From Heliocidaris erythrogramma (lineage: Eukaryota; Echinodermata; Echinoidea; Camarodonta; Echinometridae): a stretch of DNA of 64,000 nucleotides. The notes beneath the pieces were generated by a model that did not search any database, was not told the DNA's origin, and was given only the letters and a program-made list of their open reading frames with translations. The stretch is from positions 3,592,873 through 3,656,872 of the forward strand of contig CM046853.1 in assembly GCA_025617745.1 (NCBI GenBank), in the 5' to 3' direction. This document shows, one piece after another, positions 24,576 to 64,000 of this stretch. Position 1 is the stretch's first letter. The number at the start of each line of letters is the position of its first letter. Both the position numbers and the translations under genes were made by a program.

Positions 24576-24600
24576 TGTGAATGCTTGCCACCCACGGTAT
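23788..24600 (-). CDS. M1 aminopeptidase exon 1 (coding)
   Basis: The exon begins at 24600 after a strong acceptor with a pyrimidine tract (TTTTTAACTGTCCTCAG), so an untranslated first exon must lie upstream. The start is taken at ATG 24575-24573 (MTSYRQLQ), because the upstream in-frame Met lies beyond the acceptor, in the intron. It encodes the cytoplasmic tail, the membrane anchor ([19 protein letters not shown]), the Thr-rich stalk and the first part of the M1 N-domain ending [15 protein letters not shown]. The donor is CCAGT|GTAAGTA, phase 2. Confidence 0.93.
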
Positions 24601-45822: not shown

Positions 45823-47108
45823 TACAGGGGAATCTCAATATAACGAGGCTGTCAGGATCGAAGAATTTTCGTTGTTATAACCATTATCTTGTTATATCAG
45901 AACATAGGTTAAAATGCTAAATGTACACTAATAATAAATGCACCGAATTCTGCTGCCGCTGCTTAACCCTAATAGGCCCGGGGGGGGGGGGGGGATTCCG
46001 CCCCCCTCGACGTTTCGCGTAATATGTTCGCATCGCGAAAAGCAGTCACCACGCCGCTTCACTACTTTTTTCTTTCAAGTCTTGCGCAACTTTTGAGACC
46101 AAATTTGTGATGTCCACGCGTGCAGTTCAGGAGTTACGCAACATTTCGTAAGTGCATGTCAGACCCAAAATTGCTCAAAAACGTGATTTCGTGTACAAAT
46201 CCAATGCAAATTGTGTTTCCAGCTAAAATTCATAAATGTTTCATTATTTTTACTTTTACTGTTTAAAAACAATTAATTTTATGTTGTTTATGATTAAAAT
46301 AGTGTCGCCGACGAATTCCATCGAAAAAACAATAAAAAACAAAGTCAAAAAACAAAGAAATACATAAGAAATTAAAAAAACAATAAAATACATAAGAAAA
46401 AAAGGATTTTACCGAATTTTTTTTTTGGTTTATTTGATCAGAATCTGACAAAGAGTCTCTATACAAAAAATTAGTTTTGGGGCTTTATTTAATTAATAAG
46501 AGCAAACCATTAATTTTATGCATAAATTAGCATAATTAATTAGTTGTGACATTTTTTGGAGAAATTGACTATACAGTTTTGTAGATTACGTGGTCGGCGA
46601 CGTGTTTGTCGATTTTTCGTTGCGAATGCGCGGTGGACGGCCGAGATCTTAAGGGGGGCGGAATCAGCCCCCCCCCCCCCGGCTGTGAGACGAGTCTAAA
46701 TAACCCGGCTCTATTAGGGTTAAACATCCATTTGATAGCTTTGAAGTCATTAATAATAGCGATAAAAAGGTCTATGTTTTGTGGTACAGTTAAAAGGACA
46801 CACCGCATCGTCTGCGGCCACTCAAATGGCGCGATATCTCTTCCCTATGCATACTTGGGTGTGTCCAGCTGAATGATTTTGTCCATTTGAGGCGCAGTGA
46901 AATTTACTTGCTCGTTATAATGGGAATGATTGCCCATCTTTTTCTTTGTTTTAGAGCAATGAGATTTAGCTAATTATAGTTGATATCTCGTTACAAATGT
47001 TTGTGCTGCCTTAGAGTTACATGCAAGTAAAATTGGAACTGTGAAAACATCCTCGTTATAACCATTACCTCGTTATAGCCAACCTTGTTATGTCAAGTTT
47101 TCCCTGTA
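45823..47108. mobile_element. TIR element with a second TIR element nested inside
   Basis: Outer ends are TACAGGGGAATCT and the inverse of TACAGGGAAAACT, with TCGTTATAACCATTA words near both ends. Inside, 45963-46722 is bounded by TTAACCCTAATAGGCCCGG and the inverse of TTAACCCTAATAGAGCCGG and contains long G and C runs. A lone outer-type end lies at 51052, and inner-type ends near 43644 and 48258. None encodes a transposase. Confidence 0.65.
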
Positions 47109-47382
47109 TTCAAAACATGGTGTATATAGAAACAATTTTCGTAATATAATGGATAATTTTGTTTGATTCATCTTTTCTACTTTTCAATATTTATATTTCA
47201 TCAGCAATAACGATTACTTGTACTAACTTCAGATTTTGAAACTTGTTCTTAGATAATTTTTAAAAATAAACCTACATCTGACCAAATCTATTACCATCTC
47301 ATGCTCTAATCAAAGGTGTAGTTTATTACTGCTAAATTGTTAAGATAACTCATTATATTTTGAATGTTGTGAATTTCTGGTT

Positions 47383-47480
47383 AGTTTCCAAGTCAGATAC
47401 TATCTAGCAAAAGGGTGAATTCATAGGAATTGTAGATTCCTCTTCAAACCCCAATGTTGTTTACATCACTCTTAGAAACT
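47383..47480 (-). ncRNA. Box C/D snoRNA, family C copy 1
   Basis: Box C GTGATGT (47469-47463), box D CTGA (47396-47393), terminal stem AGTTTC/GAAACT. It keeps the guide GCTAGATAGTA one base before box D and the conserved GGGGTTTGAAGAGGAAT block. The exon expected about 85 nt downstream (near 47298) could not be fixed. Confidence 0.82.
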
Positions 47481-47657
47481 GTCAGCTCAGAAATGACATG
47501 TGTAGCGATCTTGCAAACTACTAGCACAGATGAGGAAATATTTTCATTAAAAATGCCCCACCACCATAATTAATCACATCATCAAGCTGTAGTCATTCAT
47601 TTCTTAGAATACCCTTTATAAATGTATTGAGAAATAAATCAAGGAGAGAAGGCATAC

Positions 47658-47737
47658 CTGCTTTAAATGGCTTTCTTTTCAGAATTTTTGTGGCATCTTT
47701 TCCAATGAAATATCATCCAGGGCCAGAGGAGAATAAT
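47658..47737 (-). ncRNA. Host-gene exon, x type (80 nt)
   Basis: Acceptor TTTTTTCCATGATAG, donor AAAGCAG|GTATGCC. Alignable with the exon at 48812-48873 through GATGCCACAAAAATT. No sustained reading frame across neighbours. Confidence 0.7.
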
Positions 47738-47822
47738 CTATCATGGAAAAAACAAACCAAAAATGTTCATAACATTCAATACTAGAATTTAAATGTACTT
47801 TTTCAACTAACACAGGTTTGGT

Positions 47823-47925
47823 GAGTTTTTAAAAGTCAGATACTATCTAGCAGTGGGTGAATTCATAGGAATGATCAATTCCTCTTCAAACCCCAAGGTT
47901 GTGTACATCATTATCTTGAAAACTC
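47823..47925 (-). ncRNA. Box C/D snoRNA, family C copy 2
   Basis: Box C-like ATGATGT, box D CTGA, terminal stem GAGTTTT/AAAACTC (7 bp). Compared with copy 3, two stem pairs change on both sides (U-A to G-C and C-G to U-A), so pairing is conserved while sequence is not. It ends 86 nt before the exon at 47737. Confidence 0.86.
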
Positions 47926-48811
47926 ATAGACATCTTATAAGATTTTTAACCCCTTCCATGCCACCATATTTTTGAGCAATTGTCAAAAATTAACTTTCAA
48001 GAGTTGAATATCAACTTTCAATGAGTTTTTTTCCTGACCAAACTGGGCAAAGGTTTATTGCATAGGAATAAACAATATATTGGAGGCATAGGTTTCTGTA
48101 TGAGAAAGAATTTTCAAGCCATTCTGAGCCTAAACAAAATGTTCAACACTCACATATTTGGGCGAGATTTGCCGCCCACGGCAATTAATATTTTTTAAAG
48201 AATATGAACCAACCTCATCAACAAGTCACAGTGGTACATCTTCAAATCTCTAAAAATACCTTAAACCCTAATCAGGCCTGGATATTTTGGCTATGCCACA
48301 GCCGGGGGGAGGGTGGACTCTGCCCCCTGAGATCTCGACAGTTGACCGCGCGATCGTGCCGAAAATCAGCAAGCACATCGTCCACAACATAATCTACAAA
48401 ACTGTATAGTTAAATGCTCCGAAATAATTTCACATTAATTGTGCTAATTTGTGCGTGAAATCAGAATTTTGCTCTAAATCATTAAATAAAGCTAAAAAAA
48501 ATTGCTGATTTTTGGTCTAGACACTCTTTCCAGTATTCTTAGCAAATATACTTGGAAAAAAATTTGGTATTAAGACCGATTTCTTTTGTAACTTATTGTA
48601 TTTTAAACTTATGTACCTTTTGTTTGTTATTTTTTAATGAAATTTGTCAGGGACAATTTGCGATTATAAACAGCATAAAATAAATTAATTTTAATCAGTA
48701 AAAATAAAAATATTAATTTATAAATTTTGGCTGAAAACACATTTTTCAGCAATTTTTGGCCTGACGAGCAAGAAGAAGAAAAAAAAGGAGAGAGAGAGAG
48801 AGAAGGCATAC

Positions 48812-48873
48812 CTACTTTTAATCAATTTTTTGTGGCCACTTATCCAATCAGATAAATCACCAAGAGTACTGAC
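48812..48873 (-). ncRNA. Host-gene exon, x type (62 nt)
   Basis: Acceptor CATATTCTTACAG, donor AAAGTAG|GTATGCC. Confidence 0.75.
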
Positions 48874-48956
48874 CTGTAAGAATATGAAGAAAAAAAGAGA
48901 TTAATACTATTTGATATCACAGATTCAGCAAGTCAATTAAATATCATGATTTTGGT

Positions 48957-49057
48957 TAGTTTCCAAGTCAGATACTATCTAGCAGAGGGTGAATTCACAG
49001 GAATCGTTGATTCCTCTTCAAACCCCAACATTGTGTACATCACTCTATTGGAAACTA
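48957..49057 (-). ncRNA. Box C/D snoRNA, family C copy 3
   Basis: Box C GTGATGT, box D CTGA, and a perfect 10-bp terminal stem TAGTTTCCAA/TTGGAAACTA. The guide GCTAGATAGTA before box D complements the conserved 28S segment UACUAUCUAGCGAAACC (recalled from memory) over 11 bases. It ends 84 nt before the exon at 48873. Confidence 0.9.
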
Positions 49058-49252
49058 CAAGGTTGGATATCACATGTGCCACAATCTTACAATTCTCTAT
49101 CATTGATAAGCTTTTAATGTAATGAACCCATCACTTCCCAAAAATTGCGCGTAAAAAGGATGTCTTGAAAGTATCTTGAAAATGTAGGATTTTCATAGAT
49201 GGTTTTTTTTTTATACAATTTTCAAGATTGTAACATTATTCCAATTTTTTTT

Positions 49253-49296
<44 letters not shown>

Positions 49297-49580
49297 GGTG
49301 AGGTGAAGGGGTCACAATGACTGTCAAAACCATCCTTGTAAAAGGTCCTATAACACAAAATTTAGGACTAAAGAGTATCCTTGCATTATTCTTTTGCTTA
49401 ATATTTTCTATGATTTATGCAAATTAGATACCAATCTGGGAAATTTATATATTGATATTTCATTACATAAAATTTTGGCCAAATGCTGATTTACAAAATT
49501 ATCTATTTCTCTTTGCTCCGACATAAGGATTCTTGCCAAGTAATTTAAAAAAAAAGAAAAAAAAGAGAACTGTAACTTAC

Positions 49581-49624
49581 TTGGGCTTTTCTTCGCTCTT
49601 GTTGGCACCATTCTCCGAGTCAAA
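49581..49624 (-). ncRNA. Host-gene exon, x3 (44 nt)
   Basis: Acceptor TTCTTCCTCCACATTTATGCAG has an excellent pyrimidine tract; the donor is CCCAA|GTAAGT. Alone it would read FDSENGANKSEEKP, but joining it to the next exon meets a stop after 11 codons. Confidence 0.78.
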
Positions 49625-49768
49625 CTGCATAAATGTGGAGGAAGAAACAACAAATTTGAATGATTGTAATGCTTTATGAAAGGTCTGAACACACTATTTA
49701 ATATATTCTATCCTGTATAAAAGATACAGAGACCACTGTCCCAAAATAGAGATTTCCTTTGTTTAAAT

Positions 49769-49865
49769 CATTCAGTATCAGATTAGAGTTGACAGCATGG
49801 TTGACGAGGTATTTTTGGACCAATCCTCCTCAAGAGTCTAACGGATAATCATCATCCACTGAATG
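49769..49865 (-). ncRNA. Box C/D snoRNA, family A copy 1
   Basis: Box C ATGATGA (49855-49849), box D CTGA (49781-49778), 8-bp terminal stem CATTCAGT/ACTGAATG. Internal GTTAGACTC and TTGGTCC segments complement adjoining pieces of 28S rRNA. It ends 145 nt before exon 49624. Confidence 0.92.
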
Positions 49866-49989
49866 AAAATAAAAGAATCTGGTACCTCAATTCCAAGCAA
49901 TACTTTGCATTTCATCCCTTTGAAATGAAGGAGATCCCTTGAAAAAACTAGAATAAAATGAATAAACAACTTTATGAAACTAAAAGTAA

Positions 49990-50503
49990 CTAGAAATATC
50001 ACTGAAGATGATGATTAATACCCCCGCCCCGTGACAACAGCCTTTCTTGACTTTTGGTCGAAAACTGAGGAAGTAGTTCGATCCGCAAGATTTTTCCCTG
50101 ATTTACTGCCGTAGATATGCCGTTTCCATGGCAACGCAGCTTCCGACACATCAAAAAAATATGTTGTACACATCTTCCCAGTAAGACCAATGTGTGTACC
50201 AAATTTCATGACTTTCGGTCAAAAACTAAGTAGTTCGATCCGCAAGGCGTTTCCTTGATTTTCTGCCATAAATATGCCGTTACCATGGCAATGCAGATTC
50301 CGACTCATCCGAAAAATATGTCTTGCACATCTTCCCACCAAGACCAATGTGTGTACCAAATTTCATGACTTTCGGTCAAAAACTGAGGAAGTAGTTCGAT
50401 CCGCAAGATTTGCAACGGACCGACCGACCGCCCGCCCGCCCGACCGCCCAACCATCGACTGATTCCTATATACCCCCTTCAAACTTCGTTTGGCGGGGGT
50501 ATA
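49990..50503 (-). mobile_element. Helentron/pearl-like element, copy 2
   Basis: Near-identical to 28161-28674, with the same CTAG end followed by T and the same TATACCCC hairpin end. It has inserted into the host-gene intron between the exon at 50848 and snoRNA A1. Confidence 0.65.
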
Positions 50504-50847
50504 AATGTAACTTAACTTCAATAACATGCCATTATTCCTTTTTTCTAAACTTGTTTTTTAGGAATGGCACATAATCAAGCAAAACCAGAAAAATGTCTTT
50601 TCCAAGGACTTCATTGTGCATGGAAACTCTAAAATATAAGCCAAAAGGATTACCCCCCCCCCCCGTAATTTACATTGAGCTACCAGTAATGCTGATATCA
50701 ATTTCTTTTGATGCTACAAAAGCGCCATGAGCACCCAGCATAGGTGGATACTAGTGCTATAAAAGAAGCCATCATCAAGTGCATACATGTAGATACAAGA
50801 AATGGATCTAGTTTTATCAGACGGCCTACTTTGGATAAATGTCTTAC

Positions 50848-50994
50848 CAAGAGGACAGCAGTACACCGACGTGGTTTGAACTCAGGACCTCATATTTTCC
50901 AGAAAACTGCCTTATCAACTAAGCCAGCACACATCTAGCGGTTGAATGTTGAATGTGCACCAAGATAGGTCTTCATCAAAAGAGAAATTTCAAG
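50848..50994 (-). ncRNA. Host-gene exon w1, tRNA-derived (147 nt)
   Basis: Acceptor CAAATCTACGGATAG, donor TTG|GTAAGAC. Inside is a tRNA-like core: A-box-like TGGCTTAGTTGATAAGGC and B-box-like GAGTTCAAACC. The same relic is visible in the exons at 53800, 55813, 61679 and 62901. Confidence 0.75.
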
Positions 50995-51303
50995 CTATCC
51001 GTAGATTTGAGAAAAAAGTGAGAGAAAAAAAATAGTATAAAGATCAAGGTACAGGGAAAACTCGACATAACAAGGTCGGTTATAACGATGCTAAATCTCA
51101 TGCCTCATCTCATGCCTCTAAAACAAAGATTGGTAATCATTCCCGTTATAACTAGCAAGCAAATTTCACTGGGCCTCAAATGGACAAAGGCATTCAGCTG
51201 GAGAATGCGTTCACTGGGTGATTTCACGCTCTGTGTTGGTGTTTAGAGCGAAAATTATCCTAAAATCGAGCTCAAACACCGATGTTCAGATTAAGAAGCC
51301 GAT

Positions 51304-51362
51304 ACCGATATCCTAACAATGCGCATCAATATCCTAACAATGCGCATCAATATCCTAACAAT
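51304..51362. repeat. 21-bp tandem repeat interrupted by a MITE
   Basis: Units of ATATCCTAACAATGCGCATCA; the array resumes at 52020 beyond the inserted element. Confidence 0.8.
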
Positions 51363-52019
51363 CAGAGCTGCCAACCTCTGGCCAAGCTTTTCCATACACG
51401 CCAAGCTGAAAAGTCGTATTTTGGCGATGAAATCCGTAATTTTTTGCAAGTCCCCAAATACCAAATTTTTAAACTGCAACTGCCACCAAAATTGTATAAG
51501 TTAGATCTAAAAATGTCCTAAAATTACTCTTTATGACACCCCAATAATTATCAATGGGAATAATATAATTATCTAGATCTAGAAACATAAAAAACCAGCT
51601 AAAAACTCACGTTCCCTATTCATCCTTTCGATTCCACATACTGCCGCCTTACACCAAGCAGCAGCCGCGCCGTGCTGCCCGCGGGCTAGGCTGGCCGGCT
51701 GCCTTACCGCCTCGGTGTGTAAGAGCAGCCGCACCGATAGCGCTTGAGCTAGAAGTTTGCATGTGCGGTGAAAGGTACGTTCGCAGTCTCCTTTCTGTAT
51801 GCACTTTAGGTACGTACACAGTGCGGAGTTCCGGGAACGGCGAAAATAATACAATATGAGTGTGAAAGTATGAGTGATAACAAATACATGTGCGCAACGT
51901 ATAATACGAATAGCGCATAATCAGATTTCTTCAAATCCGTAATTTTTGGGCGACATTCCGTACTTCCGTAGTTAATTTCCGTACCAATTACGGAAAATCC
52001 GTACTAGTTGGCAGCTCTG
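51363..52019. mobile_element. DNA transposon (MITE), 657 bp, with target duplication
   Basis: Perfect 13-bp TIRs (CAGAGCTGCCAAC) flanked by the direct repeat AACAAT (51357-51362 and 52020-52025). Removing the element and one repeat restores the 21-bp tandem unit. Inside is a GC-rich core (51645-51730) and no transposase. The CAGAG end resembles hAT, but hAT normally duplicates eight bases, so the superfamily is open. Confidence 0.85.
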
Positions 52020-52025
52020 AACAAT

Positions 52026-53123
52026 GCGCATCGATAGCCTAACACTGGCAATGACGTCAGCACCATTTTTAACGAAGGAAAAAAAATTGTTTAAAACTAT
52101 TTAGTTATTAGTCTAGAATATCGTTAAATTACACGAGTAGTCCGGTAATTCTAAAAGAAATAATTATTTGATCTAGAGTGCAGTAAGAAACTTCACAGAA
52201 ATGGATAGTCTCGACAAGAACAGTAAGTTTAGATATGATTTCTCTCGAGTTTCTCACTTGCAGCAGAAAATGCTACGGTAGCTAATGCAGCTAGACGCCA
52301 GATCGGACGGCGTAGCACGTACAGGGCAAACAGCCAAATTTCAGCAGACGATTATTAACAAAAAATAAACACCTGCAACCGGAACTACGTAAAAAAAATC
52401 AGAGGTCAACACCTACCACCGACTTATTTTTTTTCTCATTTCATAGTCGGTGTCAGATCACGATTTCACGGCAAAATAGAAACTAACACCAACCAAATAC
52501 CAACACCGAGGGTGAAATCACCCACTGAACTTACAAATACGAGCATAAGTGAAGACATATCGGGCCATTTGGGGGGGGGGGGGATCTTTTTATTCGTACC
52601 ACAGCAGAGTGAGCCCAGCCCCGAAATTTTTTCATACCATGAGTGCGCGCTATTCTGACATGTGCAGTTCATGTACCAATACCCTTAGCTTTCATCAACA
52701 ACGTGGACGGTATACGGACATTCATGAACTCCGAAGTGCGATGGTAGTTGGAGACTTAGCGTTGGAAAATAATGCTTGTAACGCATTTCAAGATATGGTC
52801 CGATGTTTTATTATTTAATTCAGAGTATTAATATATTATTAGTGCCTTCATAGCTATCAAATGAGTATATAAGCAGTGGCAGAAGAACTTGGTATGTTCA
52901 TTTTTAATATACATGGAGAATCTAGTCCTATAAGTGCATATTCATGTATGTTCTGATATATTGCGATATCAGCTTTAACGAGGAAATCCTGCGGCCCTGA
53001 CAGCCTCTCTATATCGTATTTCTCATCTGACAATGCATTTTTTTCACAACTAGTAAAAGAAAAAAGTCTCTGCTGATATTTAGAATATAAAACTAACAGA
53101 AGTGGGACAGTTATGAAAAATTA
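52026..53123. other. Host-gene intron sequence, no feature
   Basis: Expanded intron between snoRNA B1 and exon w1. It contains a G run near 52570 and GAGGAAATCCTGCGGCCCTGACAG near 52980, related to the 45823 element family. No exon or snoRNA seen. Confidence 0.5.
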
Positions 53124-53209
53124 ATGAGAGTCAACATCAGATTCATGTTTGACAGCATGGTTGTTCAGACCAATAGGGAAATTTGAATCATCACTTTCAA
53201 GACTCTCAT
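53124..53209 (-). ncRNA. Box C/D snoRNA, family B copy 1
   Basis: Perfect box C GTGATGA (53194-53188), D' CTGA (53168-53165), box D CTGA (53140-53137), 9-bp terminal stem ATGAGAGTC/GACTCTCAT. The D' guide is AATTTCCCTATTGGT; I could not match it to an rRNA from memory. It shares AACCATGCTGTCAA with family A. Transposon insertions have pushed the next exon about 2.1 kb away. Confidence 0.9.
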
Positions 53210-53379
53210 AATATTGTCATATTCAAGACTTTCATAATAATGTAATCCTTATTATGAGACAAGTCAGCTTATGCTTGCACAGAATTTGAAAACCAAAGGA
53301 ACAACCCAGGTCGATTTATGCTACAGTATACAAGTGATGTATGTACAAGTATGTGCATATCCTAAAGCATATTTCTTAC

Positions 53380-53429
53380 CTCTTATTTCTGCAAGTTCCT
53401 TATCAGCCTAATCTCTTCCATGTTGACTG
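53380..53429 (-). ncRNA. Host-gene exon y1 (50 nt)
   Basis: Donor AG|GTAAGAA. The ancestral acceptor CAG is mutated to CAT, and a TTAG 20 nt further in is the probable replacement, so this exon is shorter than its 70-nt relatives. Confidence 0.65.
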
Positions 53430-53540
53430 CTAACTTGCCATGAATGAAAAGAATAAGAGAAAGACGAGCATAAATGTTTTTACTTTTCACTTGTACATTT
53501 CTTTTCTTATTTAGGGTTAAGACAAGTTGAAATCTATCTA

Positions 53541-53624
53541 TCATTCGGTACCAAACTAGAGTTGACAGAATAGTTTGGACCAATCCTACTCAAGAGTCTT
53601 AACAGATAATCATCATCTGAATGA
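53541..53624 (-). pseudogene. Decayed box C/D snoRNA, family A copy 2
   Basis: Box C ATGATGA survives, but box D is lost (CTGA replaced by TTGG), the guide has an extra A (GTTAAGACTC) and about 15 bases of the centre are missing. Confidence 0.75.
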
Positions 53625-53799
53625 AAAAAGCTGAATTTAAAGTTTTATTTGGTCTATATTCTACACCTCAACTCTCTTTGTGCATTCAACTAGACTCCTA
53701 AGAGAATAATTAAACATATATGTTTATAAGTTACAAACCAAGATGCATACAACTTGAGTAGTATTTAACTCATTAAGAAAACAAGGACTAATGTCTTAC

Positions 53800-53923
53800 C
53801 CCCAAAACAGAAGTGTGACATCCTGGTCTGAACATAAGAGCTATTTGTAGAAAACTGCTGTATCAACTATTAAAGTGATCAGAAGTGCAGCACACCTGGT
53901 CTCCATCAAGAAAATATTTAGAG
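53800..53923 (-). ncRNA. Host-gene exon w2 (124 nt)
   Basis: Acceptor TCTCTGTTAATACATAG, donor GGGG|GTAAGAC. Starts 101 nt after snoRNA B2. Confidence 0.75.
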
Positions 53924-54023
53924 CTATGTATTAACAGAGAAAAAGAAAGAAAAATCAAAAATAAATAAAATCTATTAGCATTTGATACATAAAGCTAAGG
54001 GGATAATAAGTTTATGTCTAGTA

Positions 54024-54109
54024 ATGTGAGTCAAGATCAGATTCATGTTTGACAGCATCGTTGTTCAGACCAATAGGGAAATTTGAATCATCACTTCCAA
54101 GACTCTCAT
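54024..54109 (-). ncRNA. Box C/D snoRNA, family B copy 2
   Basis: Box C GTGATGA, D' and D CTGA all intact; the terminal stem has one mismatch (ATGTGAGTC against GACTCTCAT). Confidence 0.88.
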
Positions 54110-54239
54110 AATACTTTCAGATTCAAGACTTCAAGCAACAACTTAGGTCCATAAGTGACATAGCATACAAATGGACTACTACCTTATAAGGTAATGGGTA
54201 TACATCTCAAAAATGGCCAAATTCAAGCATTTTTCTTAC

Positions 54240-54309
54240 CTCTTATTTCTGCAAATTTCTCACTCAGACTTCTCTCTTCCATGTAGACTGCTGACAGGCC
54301 AGGGACACA
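54240..54309 (-). ncRNA. Host-gene exon y2 (70 nt)
   Basis: Acceptor TTCCTTCTTTTCAG, donor AGAG|GTAAGAA. It contains ACATGGAAGAGAG, but 70 nt is not a multiple of three. Confidence 0.82.
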
Positions 54310-54392
54310 CTGAAAAGAAGGAATACATACTATTTTTCACCTACCAGTACATTCCTTGTTTTCTAAGTAAAAACTAATTGACCTCTATTGAT

Positions 54393-54489
54393 CATTCAGA
54401 ATCAGCTTAGAGTTGACAGCATGGTTGATGAGGTATTTTTGGACCAATCCTCCTCAAGAGTCTAACGGATAATCATCATTAACTGAATG
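54393..54489 (-). ncRNA. Box C/D snoRNA, family A copy 3
   Basis: Box C ATGATGA (54479-54473), box D CTGA (54405-54402), stem CATTCAG/CTGAATG. It ends 84 nt before exon 54309. Identical in its core to copy 6. Confidence 0.92.
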
Positions 54490-54787
54490 AAACTGATCAA
54501 TTTGATATTTCAATTCTAAGTAGTATCCGTAAATTTTTTTCACTAATCATATATCTTCTAAATGTTTTCTATTCATTGTATTCACAATATATTAAACATA
54601 ATGTCACAAGTCTGCTTAAATATTGTGTAAGAAGCAAAATTAAAGCTAAAATTAAAATTAAAACAATTAAAACTTATGCTTTTTAATAAATAAAATGGGA
54701 AGACTGAGTAAAATACAAGGTACATACATGCATAACCCAGAAATGTCTAAAACTGAGCATTTATATTTCTCTTTCTCTTAGTCTTAC

Positions 54788-54858
54788 CTCCTATCTCTGC
54801 AAGAATTCTCAATATGACACATTTCTTCCATGTTGACGGCTAACAGACCAAGGATGCA
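54788..54858 (-). ncRNA. Host-gene exon z1 (71 nt)
   Basis: Acceptor GCTTTATCCAG, donor AGGAG|GTAAGAC. Homologous to the y exons through CAACATGGAAGA. Confidence 0.8.
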
Positions 54859-54950
54859 CTGGATAAAGCAAGATAAACAGAAATCATTTTTTTTTTGCAC
54901 TTGTACATTCCTCTTCTAATTTTATTTTAAAGTCAAGACAATATTTTGAT

Positions 54951-55047
54951 CATTCACTATCAGATTAGGGTTGACAGCATGGTTGATGAGGTATTTTTGG
55001 ACCAATCCTCCTCAAGAGTCTAACGGATAATCATCATTAACTGAATG
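54951..55047 (-). ncRNA. Box C/D snoRNA, family A copy 4
   Basis: Box C ATGATGA, box D CTGA, stem CATTCA/TGAATG (6 bp, seventh pair lost). 93 nt before exon 54858. Confidence 0.9.
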
Positions 55048-55491
55048 AAATTGATCAATTTGATATTTCAATTCTAGGTAGTATCCGTAATTTCTTTTTC
55101 ACTAATCATATATGTTCTAAATGTTTTCTATTCATTGTAATACGACACTGGTAAAATTATCCCCTTCTAGAATTTGTTTAAAGTCGTAGAACTGCATATA
55201 AACAGCAAAATTAAAGAAACATTTTTAAAAGGATGCTTATTACACAAAGCGAATTCCATATCAACTTTAGGAAAGTTGTTTTGTTTGAATCATCATTTTC
55301 AAAACTCACAACATATTGAACATAATTAATGTAACAAGTCTGCTTAAATCTTGTGTAAGAAGCGAAATTGAAGCTAACAATTAAAACTAATTCATTCTTT
55401 AATAAATAAATTTAGAACTAAGTAAAATACAATGTACATACATGCATAACTCAGAATCGACCAAAAATGAGCATATATCTTTTTCTCTTAC

Positions 55492-55561
55492 CTCCTATCT
55501 CTGCAAGTTTCTCAATATGACACATTTCTTCCATGTTGACTACTGATAGACCAAGGATTCA
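55492..55561 (-). ncRNA. Host-gene exon z2 (70 nt)
   Basis: Acceptor GCTTTATCCAG, donor AGGAG|GTAAGAG. The first codon in the frame shared with z1 is TGA, further evidence against coding. Confidence 0.8.
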
Positions 55562-55658
55562 CTGGATAAAGCAAAATATAACAGAAATCATCAATTTTTT
55601 TTTGCACTTGTACATTCCTCTTCTAATTTTATTTTAAAGTCAAGACAACATTTTGATC

Positions 55659-55752
55659 ATTCAGTATCAGATTAGGGTTGACAGCATGGTTGATGAGGTT
55701 TTTTGGACCAATCCTCCTCAAGAGTCTAACGGATAATCATCATTAACTGAAT
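55659..55752 (-). ncRNA. Box C/D snoRNA, family A copy 5
   Basis: Box C ATGATGA, box D CTGA, stem ATTCAGT/ACTGAAT. 98 nt before exon 55561. Confidence 0.9.
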
Positions 55753-55812
55753 AGAAGTAGTACAACTGGAGTACTATATGACTCATTACGGAAATAGGGA
55801 CTAATGTCTTAC

Positions 55813-55937
55813 TAGAAGTGTGACATCCTGATCAGAACCTAAGACCTGTTGGTTTGTAGAAAACTGCTGTATCAACTATTAAAGTGATCAGAACTGCAGC
55901 ACAACTGGTCTCCCATCAAGGAAATATTTTGAGCTAT
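55813..55937 (-). ncRNA. Host-gene exon w3 (125 nt)
   Basis: Acceptor TCTCTCCTATCCATAG, donor TCTA|GTAAGAC. Starts 99 nt after snoRNA B3. Confidence 0.75.
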
Positions 55938-56035
55938 CTATGGATAGGAGAGAAAAAAGAAAAATTACAAATAAATAAATCCTGTTAGCATTTGATACAT
56001 AAAGTTTGGGGAATAGTATGTTTATGTCTAGTAAT

Positions 56036-56113
56036 GAGTCAAGATCAGATTCATGTTTGACAGCAAGGTTGTTCAGACCAATAGGGAAATTTGAATCATC
56101 ATTTTCAAGACTC
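56036..56113 (-). ncRNA. Box C/D snoRNA, family B copy 3
   Basis: Box C ATGATGA, D' and D CTGA. The terminal stem is cut to GAGTC/GACTC by a two-base deletion, so processing may be weaker. Confidence 0.8.
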
Positions 56114-56601
56114 TCACAATACTTTCACTTTCAAGACAATGTTGAGTTCTGGGAAAGGTGAACAATTTGTGAGCTTTCTCATTCCTTATAATGTCAGTTG
56201 CAAGAACATAATAGAAATGTTCCCTGATAAGTATTGCTCTTCAAATGTCCTCATATTCAAAATATCTGAAGTGTGTGAGCCGAACATTCATGCCACATGT
56301 GTGTGCTGTCCCATATACCAATTTCTATGTTCAGTGCATCTGCTTTTTAGTGAGAATTGGTCAATTTCTTATAATTTTGATGATTCCAAAACATCACAGT
56401 ATACAGCAGTTCTTATGTACACATGTTCAACCTTTCTCAATTGCTCTGAAACAGTTTCAGTGTAATCGCATGAGCAAATCTCAACTTTATCTTTAAGCAA
56501 TAACTTGGGTCAGTTTGTGATATATCATACAAATGGACTACTACCTTATAAGGTAAAGAGTATACATCTCAAACATGGCCAAATTCAAGCATTTTTCTTA
56601 C

Positions 56602-56671
56602 CTCTTATTTCGGCAAATTTCTTATTCAGACTTCTCTCTTCCATGTAGACTGCTGACAGGCCAGGGACACA
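56602..56671 (-). ncRNA. Host-gene exon y3 (70 nt)
   Basis: Acceptor TTCCTTCTTTTCAG, donor AGAG|GTAAGAA; differs from y2 at a few bases. Confidence 0.82.
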
Positions 56672-57407
56672 CTGAAAAGAAGGAATACATACTATTTTTC
56701 ACTTACCAGTACATTCCTTGTTTTCTAAGTAAAAACTAATTAACTAGTGCTATAATTGTTTATGTATTTTAACCACTATTGCTTCCCTCAACAGGATTTC
56801 ATGTTTCTCTCCTCAACGTGTTCATTACCTTTGTTTTTTGTTTTTTTTTGTTGTTTCATTCATTATATTCATCATTAGAATACTCATTCTGATGTCATTA
56901 TTTCACCCTTTTTTCCACAGGTATGTTTTAAATTAATGTCTTTCCTCAACAGGATGACTTGTTTCTCTCCTCAGATTTTCTCCGACAGGATTTCATGTTT
57001 CTCTCCTCAATTTGTTCATTATCATTTTCTCTTAATTTCTTTCATAACAATTATTATTAGTATACTCATTCTGTTGTCAATATTTCACCTTTTCCATATG
57101 TATGTTTTAACCTTAATTTCTTTCCCCAACAGGATGTCATGTTTCTCTCCACAGATTACCTACGGTCCCAATCCCCCTTTTGTTTCCAGCTTATCCAGAC
57201 GGTTAATTGATTTCTCAGTCCTATTGTTCACTTGCTTTCAATGTTTTCTTTTCAACACAGGATTCGTTTGATGTCACTTATCCTTTCAATGCAGGTACCT
57301 TGATGTTATTTATCCTTTCAATGTAGGTACTTTGATGTTACTGTTACTATTTCTTTCTATGTTATGTGTTTGCATCCATTTTATTTATTGAATTGCTGCT
57401 TCATATA

Positions 57408-58222
57408 CACTAAAGGAAAAAAGAAACTTATAAAAGTTCAAGAGATCACCAAATTAAATTCTCTGCATGGAAATGTACCAAATTTGGATATAATGTTGAT
57501 TCAATGCATGGCTTTAAATGACAGTCAATAACAAAAAGTTTTCTTCAATGCCACAAAAGAAATGTGCACTGAAGCAAAGGACTCTCTAATCCCAAAGTCA
57601 CAAAGACAAACTGCAGCCTTGTACACCATATGCATGTCAATGAATGAAACAAAAGAATTTCAAAAGGGATTTGCAAGTTCATATCCAAACAGATTAATAG
57701 CCAGTATGTCCACCTCTAGCTTGCTGGCAAGCTGTACACCGTCTTCGCATGCTTCCGATCAGATTCGCGATGGTAGCCTGGGGAACATTGTTCCATTCCT
57801 CTTGCAGTGCTGCAATGAGCGTCTCCCTATTGATGGGTTGATTGTCACGCCTTGACACACGTCGCCCAAGCTCTTCCCAGAGATGTTCAATTGGGGAAAG
57901 GTCTGGTGAACGGGCGAACCATGGCAGAACATCAATATCCTCTTGCTCGAGGGGTGCAAATCCCTTTTGAAATTCTTTTGTTTCATTCATTGACATGCAT
58001 ATGGTGTACAAGACTGCAGTTTATCTTTGTGACTTTGGGATTAGAGAGTCCTTTGTTTCAGTGCACATTTCTTTTGTGGCATTGAAGAAACCTTTTTGTT
58101 ATTGACTGTCATTTAAAGCCATGCATTGAATCAACATTATATCCAAATTTGGTACATTTCCATGCAGAGAATTTAATTTGGTGATCTCTTGAACTTTTAT
58201 AAGTTTCTTTTTTCCTTTAGTG
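57408..58222. mobile_element. Tc1-like foldback element with 266-bp arms
   Basis: Arms 57408-57673 and 57957-58222 are inverted repeats with only a few mismatches, starting CACTAAAGGAAAAAAGAAAC and flanked by TA on both sides, the Tc1/mariner target. The spacer holds the end of a transposase. Confidence 0.88.
57694..57960 (-). pseudogene. Tc1-like transposase C-terminal fragment
   Basis: Reads WFARSPDLSPIEHLWEELGR followed by RRDNQPINRETLIAALQEEWNNVP-type sequence and a C-terminal SMRRRCTACQQARGG. The SPDLxPIEHLWEEL segment carries the last catalytic acidic residue of the DDE domain. The N-terminal DNA-binding domain and the first two acidic residues are absent, so it is inactive. Confidence 0.85.
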
Positions 58223-58391
58223 TATAAATTCTGCTGATTTATTCGCTCTTCTCATTCTCCTGACGACGGCCAGAGCATTCTGACCGGAACGTGGAGTTAT
58301 TCCAACTCACATGGTTGTACCGCAAACCTTTTTCTGAATTACAACTTCACCATGCAAACCTTCAAATCCTATATAATTGACCTCTATTGAT

Positions 58392-58488
58392 CATTCAGAA
58401 TCAGCTTAGAGTTGACAGCATGGTTGATGAGGTATTTTTGGACCAATCCTCCTCAAGAGTCTAACGGATAATCATCATTAACTGAATG
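58392..58488 (-). ncRNA. Box C/D snoRNA, family A copy 6
   Basis: Same boxes and CATTCAG/CTGAATG stem as copy 3. The downstream insertion now separates it from its acceptor by about 1.7 kb. Confidence 0.9.
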
Positions 58489-58786
58489 AAACTGATCAAT
58501 TTGATATTTCAATTCTAAGTAGTATCCGTAAATTTTTTTCACTAATCATATATCTTCTAAATGTTTTCTATTCATTGTATTCACAATATATTAAACATAA
58601 TGTCACAAGTCTGCTTAAATATTGTGTAAGAAGCAAAATTAAAGCTAAAATTAAAATTAAAACAATTAAAACTTATGCTTTTTAATAAATAAAATGGGAA
58701 GACTGAGTAAAATACAAGGTACATACATGCATAACCCAGAAATGTCTAAAACTGAGCATTTATATATCTCTTTCTCTTAGTCTTAC

Positions 58787-58857
58787 CTCCTATCTCTGCA
58801 AGAATTCTCAATATGACACATTTCTTCCATGTTGACGGCTAACAGACCAAGGATGCA
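58787..58857 (-). ncRNA. Host-gene exon z3 (71 nt)
   Basis: Sequence identical to z1 with the same splice sites. Confidence 0.8.
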
Positions 58858-58949
58858 CTGGATAAAGCAAGATAAACAGAAATCATTTTTTTTTTGCACT
58901 TGTACATTCCTCTTCTAATTTTATTTTAAAGTCAAGACAATATTTTGAT

Positions 58950-59046
58950 CATTCACTATCAGATTAGGGTTGACAGCATGGTTGATGAGGTATTTTTGGA
59001 CCAATCCTCCTCAAGAGTCTAACGGATAATCATCATTAACTGAATG
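58950..59046 (-). ncRNA. Box C/D snoRNA, family A copy 7
   Basis: Counterpart of copy 4, with box C ATGATGA, box D CTGA and stem CATTCA/TGAATG. 93 nt before exon 58857. Confidence 0.9.
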
Positions 59047-59214
59047 AAATTGATCAATTTGATATTTCAATTCTAGGTAGTATCCGTAATTTCTTTTTCA
59101 CTAATCATATATGTTCTAAATGTTTTCTATTCATTGTAATACGACACTGGTAAAATTATCCCCTTCTAGAATTTGTTTAAAGTCGTAGAACTGCATATAA
59201 ACAGCAATATTAAA

Positions 59215-61082
59215 CTAGAAATGTGCATTCCTCGTGCCGCGCAATGCGAAATGTATCCCCCGGCGCTGGTAGCGATTTGAAGGAGGGACAAAGACCCTCC
59301 CCCATCCCCTCCCTCAAACAAAAGGATGGTGTAGAAATTGCCGCCAGTGGCCCGGAATATTGTCAACACCAGGAGCAGCATTACCAAAACGATTTGTGTA
59401 GATTAGAGTATAATGCATTTTTATAGAAAATTCGGAAGAAATATGACCTCAGAGCGCACATAAGACATCCACTAAAATATGACCTTTGATCCTATGAAAG
59501 ACGGAACACTAGAGGCAGCATCACCAAAAACTGTAGAGGTGTAATCTATAATGGACCTACATACAAAATTTGAATGAAATCCGTCAAGAAATGCAGAAGT
59601 AAGAGTGCACAAAAGGGACAAATGAGCTTTGACCCTATAAAGGATGGAACAATGAGGGCAGCATCACCAAACAGTAAAGATGTGTAGATTATACCAAGAT
59701 ACATCTCCATACAAAATTTGAAAGAAATCCATCAAGAAATGTGGCCTGCAGAGTGAACTCACGCCATCCCTTGAAGTATGACCTTTGACCCTATAAAAGA
59801 CGGGACACTGGTGGCAGCATCACCAAAAACTACAGGTTTTTAGATTACACCAAGGGACACCTTCATGCAAAATTTGAACGCAATCCGTCAAGAAATGCAG
59901 AAGTAAGAGTGCAAGAAATGGAAAAATGACCTTTGACCCTATAAAGGACGGAACAATGAGGGCAGCATCACCAAAAATTAAATATGTGTAGATTATACCA
60001 AGATACATCTCCATACAAAATTTGAATGAAATCCGTCAAGAAATGCAGAAGTAAGAGTGCACAAAATGGACAAATGAGCTTTGACCCTATAAAGGACGGA
60101 ACAATGAGGGCAGCATCACCAAACAGTAAAGATGTGTAGATTATACCAAGATACATCTCCATACAAAATTTGAAAGAAATCCATCAAGAAATGTGGCCTG
60201 CAGAGTGAACTCACGCCATCCCTTGAAGTATGACCTTTGACCCTATAAAAGACGGGACACTGGTGGCAGCATCACCAAAAACTACAGGTTTTTAGATTAC
60301 ACCAAGGGACACCTTCATGCAAAATTTGAACGAAATCCGTCAAGAAATGCAGAAGTAAGAGTGCAAGAAATGGAAAAATGACCTTTGACCCTATAAAGGA
60401 CGGAACAATGAGGGCAGCATCACGAAAAATTAAACATGTGTAGATTATACCAAGATACATCTCCATACAAAATTTGAACAAAATCCATTGAGAAATGTGG
60501 CCTGCAGAGTGCACTCACGACATGTCCTGAAGTATGACCTTTGACCCTATAAAAGACGGGACACTGGGGGCAGCATCACCAAACACTATAGGTTTTTAAA
60601 TTACACCAAGAGACACCTTCATGTAAAATTTGAACAAAATCCGTTGAGAAATGTGACCGCCAGAGCGCACACAAGAGTACACACAAGACATCTATCAAAA
60701 TATGACCTTTGACCCTATAAAAGACGGAACACTGGGGGCAGCATCACCAAAATCTATAGGGTTCCAGATTTTACCAAGAGACACCTTCATACAAAATTTG
60801 AACAAAATCCGTTGAGAAATGTGACCGCTAGAGCGCACACAAACTTTCCCCAAAAATATGGCCTTTTACCCTATAAAAGACGGAACACTGGGGGCAGCAT
60901 CACCAGAAACTATAGGGGTCCAGATTTTACCAAGATACACGTCCATAGGAAGTCTGAAAGAAATTCGTCGAGAAATGTGACCGCTAGAGCGCACACAAGA
61001 ATGTGACGCGGCGGCGGCGGCGGCGGCGGCGAAACGCTGCTGAATCCAAAGTATCCTCCGGCATACTGCCGGGGGATACAAT
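59215..61082 (-). mobile_element. 1.87 kb Helentron/pearl-like element with tandem core
   Basis: On the minus strand it starts ATTGTATCCCCCGGCAGTATG, forming a hairpin with TGCCGGAGGATAC, carries about ten diverged units of about 150 bp (each with TGACCTTTGACCCTATAAA and GGCAGCATCACCAAA), and ends TTTCTAG followed by T. The empty site in unit I near 55225 shows insertion without target duplication. A GCC/GGC trinucleotide run sits at 61009-61031. Confidence 0.75.
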
Positions 61083-61357
61083 AAACATTTTTAAAAGGAT
61101 GCTTATTACACAAAGCGAATTCCATATCAACTTTAGGAAAGTTGTTTTGTTTGAATCATCATTTTCAAAACTCACAACATATTGAACATAATTAATGTAA
61201 CAAGTCTGCTTAAATCTTGTGTAAGAAGCGAAATTAAAGCTTACAATTAAAACTAATTCATGCTTTGTAATAAATAAATTGAACTAAGTAAAATACAAGG
61301 TACATACATGCATAACCCAGAATCGACCAAAAATGAGCATATATCTATTTCTCTTAC

Positions 61358-61427
61358 CTCCTATCTCTGCAAGTTTCTCAATATGACACATTTCTTCCAT
61401 GTTGACTACTGATAGACCAAGGATTCA
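61358..61427 (-). ncRNA. Host-gene exon z4 (70 nt)
   Basis: Identical to z2, including the initial TGA. Confidence 0.8.
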
Positions 61428-61524
61428 CTGGATAAAGCAAAATATAACAGAAATCATCAATTTTTTTTTGCACTTGTACATTCCTCTTCTAATTTTATTT
61501 TAAAGTCAAGACAACATTTTGATC

Positions 61525-61618
61525 ATTCAGTATCAGATTAGGGTTGACAGCATGGTTGATGAGGTTTTTTTGACCAATCCTCCTCAAGAGTCTAACGGAT
61601 AATCATCATTAACTGAAT
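61525..61618 (-). ncRNA. Box C/D snoRNA, family A copy 8
   Basis: Box C ATGATGA, box D CTGA, stem ATTCAGT/ACTGAAT. The accessory TTGGTCC is changed to TTGGTCA. Confidence 0.88.
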
Positions 61619-61678
61619 AGAAGTAGTACAACTGGAGTTACATATGACTCATTACGGAAATAGGGACTAATGTCTTAC

Positions 61679-61803
61679 TAGAAGTGTGACATCCTGATCA
61701 GAACCTAAGACCTGTTGGTTTGTAGAAAACTGCTGTATCAACTATTAAAGTGATCAGAACTGCAGCACAACTGGTCTCCGATCAAGGAAATATTTTGAGC
61801 TAT
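61679..61803 (-). ncRNA. Host-gene exon w4 (125 nt)
   Basis: Acceptor TCTCTCCTATCCATAG, donor TCTA|GTAAGAC; counterpart of w3. Confidence 0.75.
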
Positions 61804-61899
61804 CTATGGATAGGAGAGAAAAAAAAAAATTACAAATAGATAAAATCTGTTAGCATTTTATACATAAAGCTTGGGGAATAGTATGTTTATTTCTAGTAA

Positions 61900-61983
61900 T
61901 GAGAGTCAAGATCAGATTCATGTTTGACAGCAAGGTTGTTCAGACCAATAGGGAAATTTGAATCATCATTTTCAAGACTCTCA
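61900..61983 (-). ncRNA. Box C/D snoRNA, family B copy 4
   Basis: Box C ATGATGA, D' and D CTGA, 8-bp stem TGAGAGTC/GACTCTCA. 97 nt before exon w4. Confidence 0.9.
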
Positions 61984-62478
61984 CAATACTTTCACTTTCA
62001 AGACTTTAAAGACAAGGTTCAGTTCTGGGAAAGGTGACAAATTTGTGAGCTTTAGTTTCTCATTCCTTTTAATGTCAGTTGCAAGAACATCATAATAGAA
62101 ATGTTCCCTGATAAGTATTGCTCTTCAAATGTCCTCATATTCAAAATATCTGAAGTGTGTGAGCCGAACATTCATGCCACATGTGTGTGCTGTCCCATAT
62201 ACCAATTTCTATGTTCAGTGCATCTGCTTTTCAGTGAGATTTGGTAAATTTCTTATAATTTTGATGATTCCAGAACATCACAGTATACAGCAGTTCTTAT
62301 GTACACATGATCAACCTTTCTCATTGCTCAGTTTCTTTCAGTGTAATCGCATGAGCAAAACTCAACTTTATCTTTAATAACTTGGGTCAATTTGTGATAT
62401 ATCATACAAATGGACTACTACCTTATAAGGTAAAGAGTATACATCTCAAACATGGCCAAATTCAAGCATTTTTCTTAC

Positions 62479-62548
62479 CTCTTATTTCTGCCAATTTCTT
62501 ATTCAGACTTCTCTCTTCCATGTTGACTGCTGACAGGCCAGGGACGCA
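62479..62548 (-). ncRNA. Host-gene exon y4 (70 nt)
   Basis: Acceptor CCTTTTTTTCAG, donor AGAG|GTAAGAA. Confidence 0.82.
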
Positions 62549-62631
62549 CTGAAAAAAAGGAGAGACATATTATTTTTCACTTACCAGTACATTCCTTGTT
62601 TTCTAAGTAAAACTAATTGACCTCTATTGAT

Positions 62632-62728
62632 CATTCAGAATCAGATTCAAGTTGACAGCATGGTTGGTGAGGTATTTTTGGACCAATCCTCCTCAAGAGT
62701 CTAACGGATAATCATCATCAACTGAATG
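62632..62728 (-). ncRNA. Box C/D snoRNA, family A copy 9
   Basis: Box C ATGATGA, box D CTGA, stem CATTCAG/CTGAATG; GTTAGACTC and TTGGTCC intact. 84 nt before exon y4. Confidence 0.92.
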
Positions 62729-62900
62729 AAAGTAGATCAACTTAATATTTTTATTTGGGACATATTCTATACTTTATCTCTCTAAACAGGTGAATATCTT
62801 TGTCTCTGCTATGAAGGTACATGTGTACGTGTACATGTATGCTTTGAAGTATGGATACGGTACCTACTATTCAAAAAGCAAATGGGGATTAATGCCTTAC

Positions 62901-63044
62901 CAAAGGAAAAGAAGCACACCTTGGTTTTGAACCCAGGACTTCTTGGTAGACTTCTGCTCTATGAACTAAGTCATCACACCTCTCATTACAGAATGGTCAT
63001 CTGCAGCACAACTGATCCCCAAGAATATGAAGAACTTTGGCTAT
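62901..63044 (-). ncRNA. Host-gene exon w5, tRNA-derived (144 nt)
   Basis: Acceptor TTTCTTTTGTATTCATAG, donor TTTG|GTAAGGC. It has the clearest tRNA core of the series: A-box-like TGACTTAGTTCATAGAGC and B-box-like GGGTTCAAAACC. Confidence 0.75.
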
Positions 63045-63123
63045 CTATGAATACAAAAGAAATTAAGAATAAACAAATAATAAAAACAAAAAGCTGGGAG
63101 AGGTTTTTCTCTTTGGTCTTGTA

Positions 63124-63210
63124 ATGAAAGTATAATACATCAGATTCATTTTTGACAGCATGGTTGTTCAGACCAATAGGGAAATTTGAATCATCACTTT
63201 CAAGACTCAT
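63124..63210 (-). ncRNA. Box C/D snoRNA, family B copy 5 (weak stem)
   Basis: Box C GTGATGA (63197-63191), D' CTGA, box D CTGA (63143-63140). The terminal stem pairs only partly. 80 nt before exon w5. Confidence 0.75.
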
Positions 63211-63270
63211 AACACTTTCACATAAAAATGTATAAATCCTACACAAGACCGAAATTTAGCATTTTCTTAC

Positions 63271-63321
63271 CTCTTATTCCTGCAAGTTTTTTAATCACTA
63301 TCATCTCTTCCATGGTGAATG
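63271..63321 (-). ncRNA. Host-gene exon y5 (51 nt)
   Basis: Donor AGAG|GTAAGAA. As in y1, the ancestral acceptor CAG became CAT, and TAATCAG about 20 nt in is the probable acceptor. It holds CACCATGGAAGAG, a good Kozak context opening a 14-codon frame to the donor. Confidence 0.65.
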
Positions 63322-63426
63322 CTGATTAGCCAAGGATGAAAAAAAATAATTAAAAAAAAAAAAATCTGTATTTTTCACTGGAATGCTCTTCTTATCTCAA
63401 ATCCAAGCAACTTTTCCTCTATTCAT

Positions 63427-63474
63427 CACTCAGTATCAGACCAGAGTTGACAGCATGGTTGATGAGGTATTTTT
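63427..63474 (-). pseudogene. Truncated box C/D snoRNA, family A copy 10
   Basis: The 3' half of a family A snoRNA with box D CTGA (63439-63436) and ACCATGCTGTCAACTCTGG. It stops abruptly at 63474, where unrelated sequence replaces the box C half. Its place about 105 nt before exon y5 fits an intronic snoRNA. Confidence 0.8.
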
Positions 63475-64000
63475 CATGGATCCGGATGGACAAAATGCTC
63501 ACCCTTATTCCCTGGCTTAACCAATCCCGCTCAAAACTGATTTTATATCTACCTAGAAAACAGATGGCAGACTTAGCTGTACACGCTCCTTGGCTTATCA
63601 ATCTGGTACTGGCCTACGGAGCTGTTACATGGGATCCATACATTGTGTGTGGAGGCACACCACGAATAGTGGTCATATTGACCACTACGAATACAATATG
63701 CAAAAATAGTTGGTATTTTCTGTCGCGTGTAGTAAAGGTATGGGGGGGAAAATAAGATAAATATGTTAAATACTTGCTTTCAAATTCAGGCCTTAAAAAT
63801 CTCACTCCTACCTCAAATGGCCGTTAGGAAGAACTTTTGATATTTTCAGCAAAAGTCAAGTCAAAATCTTGTCCAAAACCGGAGAAATCCCCGCCGATTT
63901 GTTTCGCGATCGCGTGTTGTTTACATACTGCCGATGTCTTAGACTAAAATCGGCCAATAAAATTTTTGTCCACGAAGAAACTCGGGATCGCAAGCGCACA
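63475..64000. other. Unidentified sequence beyond the snoRNA breakpoint
   Basis: Begins CATGGATCCGGATGGAC. A plus-strand ORF (63447-63755) runs through it and is richer in ordinary residues than its neighbours, but I do not recognise it. It could be a transposon inserted into snoRNA A10 or the edge of a deletion. Confidence 0.4.

Follow-up and report, generated by a model that had tools for sequence, protein, structure and literature searches.

The minus strand of a 64,000-nucleotide (nt) stretch of the Heliocidaris erythrogramma genome (G000:C1:3592873-3656872; this whole stretch is the window, and positions are counted from its first letter) carries an array of box C/D small nucleolar RNA (snoRNA) copies between positions 47383 and 63474, in which the snoRNA units alternate with short splice-bounded exons. 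The motif scan and homology searches together identified 16 intact and four decayed snoRNA copies in the array. It is highly probable that the locus is a non-protein-coding host gene of the SNHG/GAS5 type, the introns of which would carry three families (A, B and D) of guide snoRNAs for large-subunit (LSU) ribosomal RNA (rRNA); its status as a host gene is read from the sequence. This interpretation was adopted because the snoRNA copies are intronic, lie at a characteristic spacing from the 3' splice site and have a conserved core within poorly conserved introns, and because the exons are less conserved than the snoRNA cores, contain no long open reading frame (ORF) and accompany guides with plausible rRNA targets. 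The gene appears ordinary in kind and grown by local duplication, with one or two targets that are possibly surprising. The strand, the coordinates and the alternation of exons and snoRNAs are as given in a preliminary description of the locus, to which the three families, the dead units and the fitting targets are additions.

Units were detected using a scan for box C (RTGATG[A/T]), box D (CTGA) and a closing stem. Positions 46500-64000 returned 14 units on the minus strand and one on the plus strand, and positions 1-46499 returned none on either strand, compared with a mean of 0.56 and a maximum of four units in 200 dinucleotide shuffles. A first, stricter version of the scan gave 11 units on the minus strand, none on the plus strand and none in 1-46499 (shuffle mean 0.28). 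Two B copies with stems too weak for the scan were added by homology, bringing the intact total to 16; the combination of boxes, spacing and closing stem was found by the scan in 14 of these, and the boxes alone were found in the two B copies. The count of about 17 units in the preliminary description was therefore close, with the exception of its last unit (at 63474), which is a dead copy without box C. BLAST searches with one copy of each kind as the query sorted the intact copies into eight of family A, five of family B and three of family D.

The eight intact copies of family A (from the start of box C to the end of box D, all found by the scan) lie at 62641-62718, 61533-61609, 58959-59036, 58401-58478, 55667-55743, 54960-55037, 54402-54479 and 49778-49855, the last with a closing stem of 10 bp. 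Two further A copies were recognized by homology: 63425-63474, which retains the 3' half only, and 53540-53627, which is degenerate, with box D lost and an internal deletion. Family B was found by the scan at 61912-61969, 54037-54094 and 53137-53194 and by homology at 63140-63197 and 56045-56102; the last two have intact boxes and stems under the scan threshold, and 56045-56102 also has a 2-nt deletion. Two B stubs (61150-61183 and 55284-55317, by homology) comprise the box-C half only. Family D was found by the scan at 48968-49043, 47836-47911 and 47393-47469. All of these features are on the minus strand.

Genome-wide DNA searches (1.06 Gb in 26 contigs) gave ten matches to family A, every one in this window, three matches to family D, all at the locus, and six matches to family B, five of them at the locus and the sixth a 39-nt match on contig C18 to the downstream flank only. 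Very common words were skipped in these searches and the counts are lower bounds; within this limit, complete copies of each family occur only at this locus.

The snoRNA cores are conserved against a background of diverged introns. Across the 41 pairs of intact copies that were compared (the four decayed copies being left out), identity from box C to box D was 0.87-1.00, and that of the intron flanks was 0.33-0.73 in 37 pairs and 0.74-0.97 in the four pairs of recent duplicates. Identity between type-1 exons belonging to different subtypes is 0.70-0.76, compared with at least 0.92 for the A cores, and places the exons between core and flank, as expected where host exons matter little. The guide adjoining box D' in families A and B, or box D in family D, is constant across the intact copies, and the box-D guide of family A varies. 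When folded, one A copy and two D copies were moderately more stable than their shuffles (z of about -2).

Sixteen internal exons with AG/GT borders were modelled on the minus strand, where about 17 mini-exons had been described. The main type (type 1) is 70 or 71 nt long in seven full copies, at 62479-62548, 61358-61427, 56602-56671, 55492-55561 and 54240-54309 (70 nt) and at 58787-58857 and 54788-54858 (71 nt); two others are shorter, namely 63271-63321 (51 nt, with an alternative acceptor) and the degenerate 53380-53433 (54 nt). Type-2 exons lie at 62901-63044 (144 nt), 61679-61803 (125 nt), 55813-55937 (125 nt) and 53800-53923 (124 nt). Read along the minus strand, the units recur as A, type-1 exon, B, type-2 exon. 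Three further exons are located at 49581-49624 (44 nt, between the A copy at 49778-49855 and the D copy at 48968-49043), 48812-48873 (62 nt, following the same D copy) and 47658-47737 (80 nt, following the D copy at 47836-47911). A candidate start of the terminal exon with a weak acceptor and an AATAAA 4 nt inside was identified by eye at 47322-47331. The model leaves aside the 5' end and candidate exons between 53380 and 49624.

The 3' splice site that follows in the exon model lies 92-105 nt from box D in six of the eight A copies. The corresponding distances are 94 and 98 nt in two D copies and, among the three B copies for which they were computed, 108 and 113 nt in two. The third B copy has no modelled exon nearby and a candidate acceptor about 87 nt away, and the remaining two B copies lie approximately 95 and 107 nt from the 3' splice site as measured by hand. 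The other two A copies have spacings of 153 and 1729 nt, the latter (58401-58478) because of an inserted stretch. These spacings are a little longer than the 80-100 nt described previously. The arrangement of one snoRNA per intron was seen in most of the modelled introns, but not in that between exons 61427-61358 and 58857-58787, where a B stub and an insertion accompany an A copy.

No 5' end or terminal oligopyrimidine start of the host gene was found in the upstream 10 kb, which was read by eye only and is repeat-rich; the first unit of the array is the truncated A copy at 63425-63474. An inverted repeat at approximately 63570-63640 and at approximately 1960-2030 of the upstream sequence L009, also noted by eye, encloses a segment of about 2.4 kb that lies upstream of the first snoRNA copy and is perhaps an inserted element between this copy and the promoter. 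A genome-wide search with the type-2 exons, again skipping very common words, gave three matches, all at this locus. Strings resembling the A and B boxes of RNA polymerase III promoters were noted by eye in type-2 exons and a related stretch (53-54, 55.8-55.9, 61.7-61.8 and 50.85-50.95 kb). An origin of the type-2 exons from a short interspersed element derived from transfer RNA (tRNA) was considered and dropped, as no tRNA was found by ARAGORN or Rfam and the only genome matches are those at the locus.

The array has been enlarged by duplication. The block 62621-58374 duplicates 56744-54375; aligned segments of 1553 and 841 nt are 95.2% and 99.76% identical, respectively, and similarity among older duplicates is 70-86%. 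In the copy at 62-58 kb, approximately 1.87 kb (61079-59215) interrupts the block and approximately 1.63 kb (58373-56745) follows it, and neither stretch is present in the other copy. Both resemble insertions into introns that carry snoRNAs; the second separates the A copy at 58401-58478 from its splice site by 1.7 kb. The stretch 61079-59215 contains internal repeats of roughly 150/300 nt.

Targets were predicted using an LSU rRNA proxy composed of L018, a eukaryotic LSU contig from a bacterial metagenome-assembled genome (MAG), and the first 125 bases of the IMG/VR contig L029. Six guide regions in eight versions were scored as anchored duplexes against LSU rRNA, with 400 shuffles each. The guide at box D of family D forms duplexes of 12 and 15 nt (matched by 1 and 0 of 400 shuffles, respectively), the longer one in copy 47393-47469, and the D' guide of family B forms a duplex of 12 nt with one G-U pair (5 of 400). 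The +5 rule places the residues to be methylated at C914 of L018 for family A, U2716 of L018 for family D and A22 of L029 for family B. Comparison of a yeast modification table with the proxy put all 21 modified residues in the regions 645-663, 2314-2421 and 2921-2975 on the expected base, with a constant offset in each region; the targets were therefore taken to be the equivalents of yeast C663, U2347 and A2934. We regard it as highly likely that family D targets the equivalent of yeast U2347 and very likely that family A (through its D' guide) targets that of yeast 25S C663 and human 28S C1340. For family B the chances are about even that it targets the equivalent of yeast A2934 (Arabidopsis A2935), beside the A-loop. 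Family A also carries the stretch TTGGTCC, which is complementary to a GGACCAA that occurs once in the proxy, 1 nt 5' of the main duplex; in the copy at 61533-61609 the last C of this stretch is missing. Accessory pairing of this kind exists for some C/D guides, and TTGGTCC fits it. The D target is present in 28S fragments of the H. erythrogramma genome itself, at three of the six places found.

Each of the three chosen targets has a row in the table of methylation sites mapped across species in PMC11542601. The probability that at least three of six guides would fall on such residues by chance is about 0.00035, taking about 90 LSU rows as counted by hand. C663 is 2'-O-methylated in yeast with snR58 as the guide (PMC8307265), and human Cm1340 (formerly 1327) is guided by SNORD104 (PMC5597630, PMC3766210, PMC11542601). 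Family A is predicted to act on the same residue as these two snoRNAs; no sequence homology to them was shown and there is no Rfam match to family A, which differs by its additional 7-nt complementary stretch. Um2347 in yeast is guided by snR65 (PMC8307265), which shares its predicted residue with family D, again with no sequence homology shown. In Table 2 of PMC11542601 it is equivalent to Um2350, mapped in tomato and tobacco, and the human column is blank, whereas a combined Um/pseudouridine entry for U2347 in PMC8307265 is marked as conserved in human. A2934 was equated with Arabidopsis Am2935 by conversion through Am2947, the equivalent of yeast Am2946 (PMC11542601); in the same table Am2935 is blank for yeast and human and was not mapped in tomato or tobacco. 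The comparison of family B with the Arabidopsis guide for 25S Am2935 is by site only, the predicted residue being the same. The available part of a chicken guide list (PMC2653536) contains no guide for the U2347 or A2934 sites, as converted from C3330 and C3991, and nothing further was found in the literature searched on snR65 homologues in Drosophila or on Am2935. It is possible, and we suggest it tentatively, that two LSU methylations outside the well-known vertebrate set, Am2935 (known from Arabidopsis) and Um2347 (known from yeast), have animal guides in families B and D, encoded by five and three copies in a single gene alongside eight copies for a site that human and yeast share; the sites would then be ones thought to be specific to fungi or plants, and copy number might set the level of methylation.

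Several results weigh against the host-gene interpretation or its targets. A search against Rfam returned no family at the gathering score, the best C/D matches in the region having E values of 4.3 and 9.8; membership of a curated family does not, however, define box C/D snoRNAs in general. The single B copy that was folded was no more stable than its shuffles (163 of 200 as good), and compensatory changes in the stems are nearly absent (one of 32, none of 21 and none of 34 pairs), the copies being too alike. The LSU proxy is a contaminant sequence and not that of an animal. The duplex of the A guide at D' is only 9 nt long, with 49 of 400 shuffles as good; the score of the B guide is not significant alone with six regions tested; and the other guide regions score at chance (262 and 381 of 400 for the box-D guide of A, 362 for that of B and 255 for the D' guide of D). 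Searches of this genome for the exact A-target and B-target strings gave no matches, and complete ribosomal DNA (rDNA) appears to be missing from it.

Three other explanations were considered alongside the host-gene interpretation. It is very improbable that the locus is a largely dead tandem array in which a repeat has been duplicated, the C/D boxes are fossils and only a few copies work. Clear decay is seen in four of the 20 copies, the array contains two inserted stretches and recent duplication, as in the near-identical segment of 841 nt, could explain part of the similarity, but the old copies have kept their cores 0.87-0.98 identical against flanks at 0.33-0.73, and their guides next to D' (A and B) or D (D) are unchanged where the copy is intact. 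That genuine snoRNAs are passengers in the introns of a protein-coding or otherwise functional messenger RNA (mRNA) is scarcely probable. The exon model lacks its 5' end, coding exons could exist further upstream, and four of the seven full type-1 exons have one frame free of stops; against this, the longest ORF starting with ATG in the joined 16-exon model is 41 amino acids, below the shuffle mean of 54, exon lengths of 70, 71 and 125 nt shift the frame and the frames interrupted by stops differ among the three type-1 subtypes. These features support the view, already put forward in the preliminary description, that the spliced RNA would be non-coding. It is unlikely, finally, that B, A or both are directed not at LSU rRNA but at 18S rRNA, small nuclear RNA or mRNA, in the manner of the orphan snoRNAs SNORD115 and SNORD116. 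The guide scan covered LSU rRNA only, and the five in 400 shuffles that equalled the B match are counted before correction for the six regions; nevertheless, in each of the three chosen duplexes the +5 rule points to a residue that is methylated in other eukaryotes.

Among known systems, the locus most resembles the vertebrate GAS5-like gene of PMC2653536, with a C/D snoRNA in each intron, short exons of low conservation, no long ORF and duplication within the gene; the same paper describes the gas5-like gene in chicken as a hotspot of snoRNA expansion by duplication. Unlike SNHG/GAS5 genes with many different snoRNAs, the sea-urchin locus has three families with eight, five and three intact copies, and no relation to GAS5 is claimed. 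The SNORD115 and SNORD116 arrays are made up of numerous near-identical C/D copies in the introns of a single non-coding host. The many-copy intronic layout is the same here, whereas those snoRNAs are orphans and the present ones are predicted to guide rRNA methylation. No gene evidently matching this locus was found in the accessible portions of the literature on echinoderms, sea urchins and invertebrates; we do not claim that it is undescribed.

In the mechanism that we infer for transcription, processing and methylation, a long non-coding RNA would be transcribed from the minus strand and spliced, and the excised introns would be debranched and each trimmed to one box C/D snoRNA. The snoRNAs would then guide fibrillarin to 2'-O-methylate LSU rRNA at the equivalents of C663 (A), U2347 (D) and A2934 (B). 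Copy number would have been raised by local duplication of an intron-exon module, with element insertions and decay afterwards.

A number of candidates and incidental observations are recorded here. Pairing of family B with GGACCAA through TTGGTC would span only some 5-6 bp and was dropped. For the D' region of family D the best hit is U915 of L018, the residue that would correspond to Arabidopsis Um676; this was not claimed and is not one of the three targets counted, as 255 of 400 shuffles were as good and the proxy letters need not be conserved. Plus-strand matches to mir-2335 and mir-2849 (E values of 4.7-7.1) overlap snoRNA A or fall outside and were taken as chance. L018, L019 and L020 are deposited as bacterial MAGs and hold eukaryotic LSU rRNA; L019 and L020 were not used as a proxy, since they contain LSU sequence only at their ends, around a long insert. 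Positions 1-125 of L029 are eukaryotic LSU rRNA and the remainder is phage-like, so that this contig is probably a chimera. A search for an 18S proxy with two patterns gave no matches in viral contigs. The search for H. erythrogramma rDNA (17-nt and 24-nt patterns, the 5.8S family and 2.5 kb of LSU) returned fragments only. The 28S fragments, approximately 50-80 nt long and from nearly the same stretch of the gene, lie on the five contigs C4, C8, C7, C21 and C13 (L023, L024, L026, L027 and L028), and were perhaps left by retroelements inserting in 28S. Elsewhere in the window, the minus strand has a first-exon-like ORF at 23784-24641 for part of an M1 aminopeptidase. Its translation includes a peptidase M1 N-terminal domain (Pfam, E = 1.4e-16) and a stretch resembling a transmembrane segment, and is closest in the PDB to ERAP2 of the human type.

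The locus offers a clean and dissectable case of a putative non-coding host gene growing by duplication of intron-exon modules, in which dead, new and identical copies lie next to one another. Should the predictions for families B and D prove true, animal rRNA methylation near the peptidyl-transferase centre would include sites that are missed by a comparison of human and yeast, and the guides for these sites would sit in one gene, where they could be counted and removed together.

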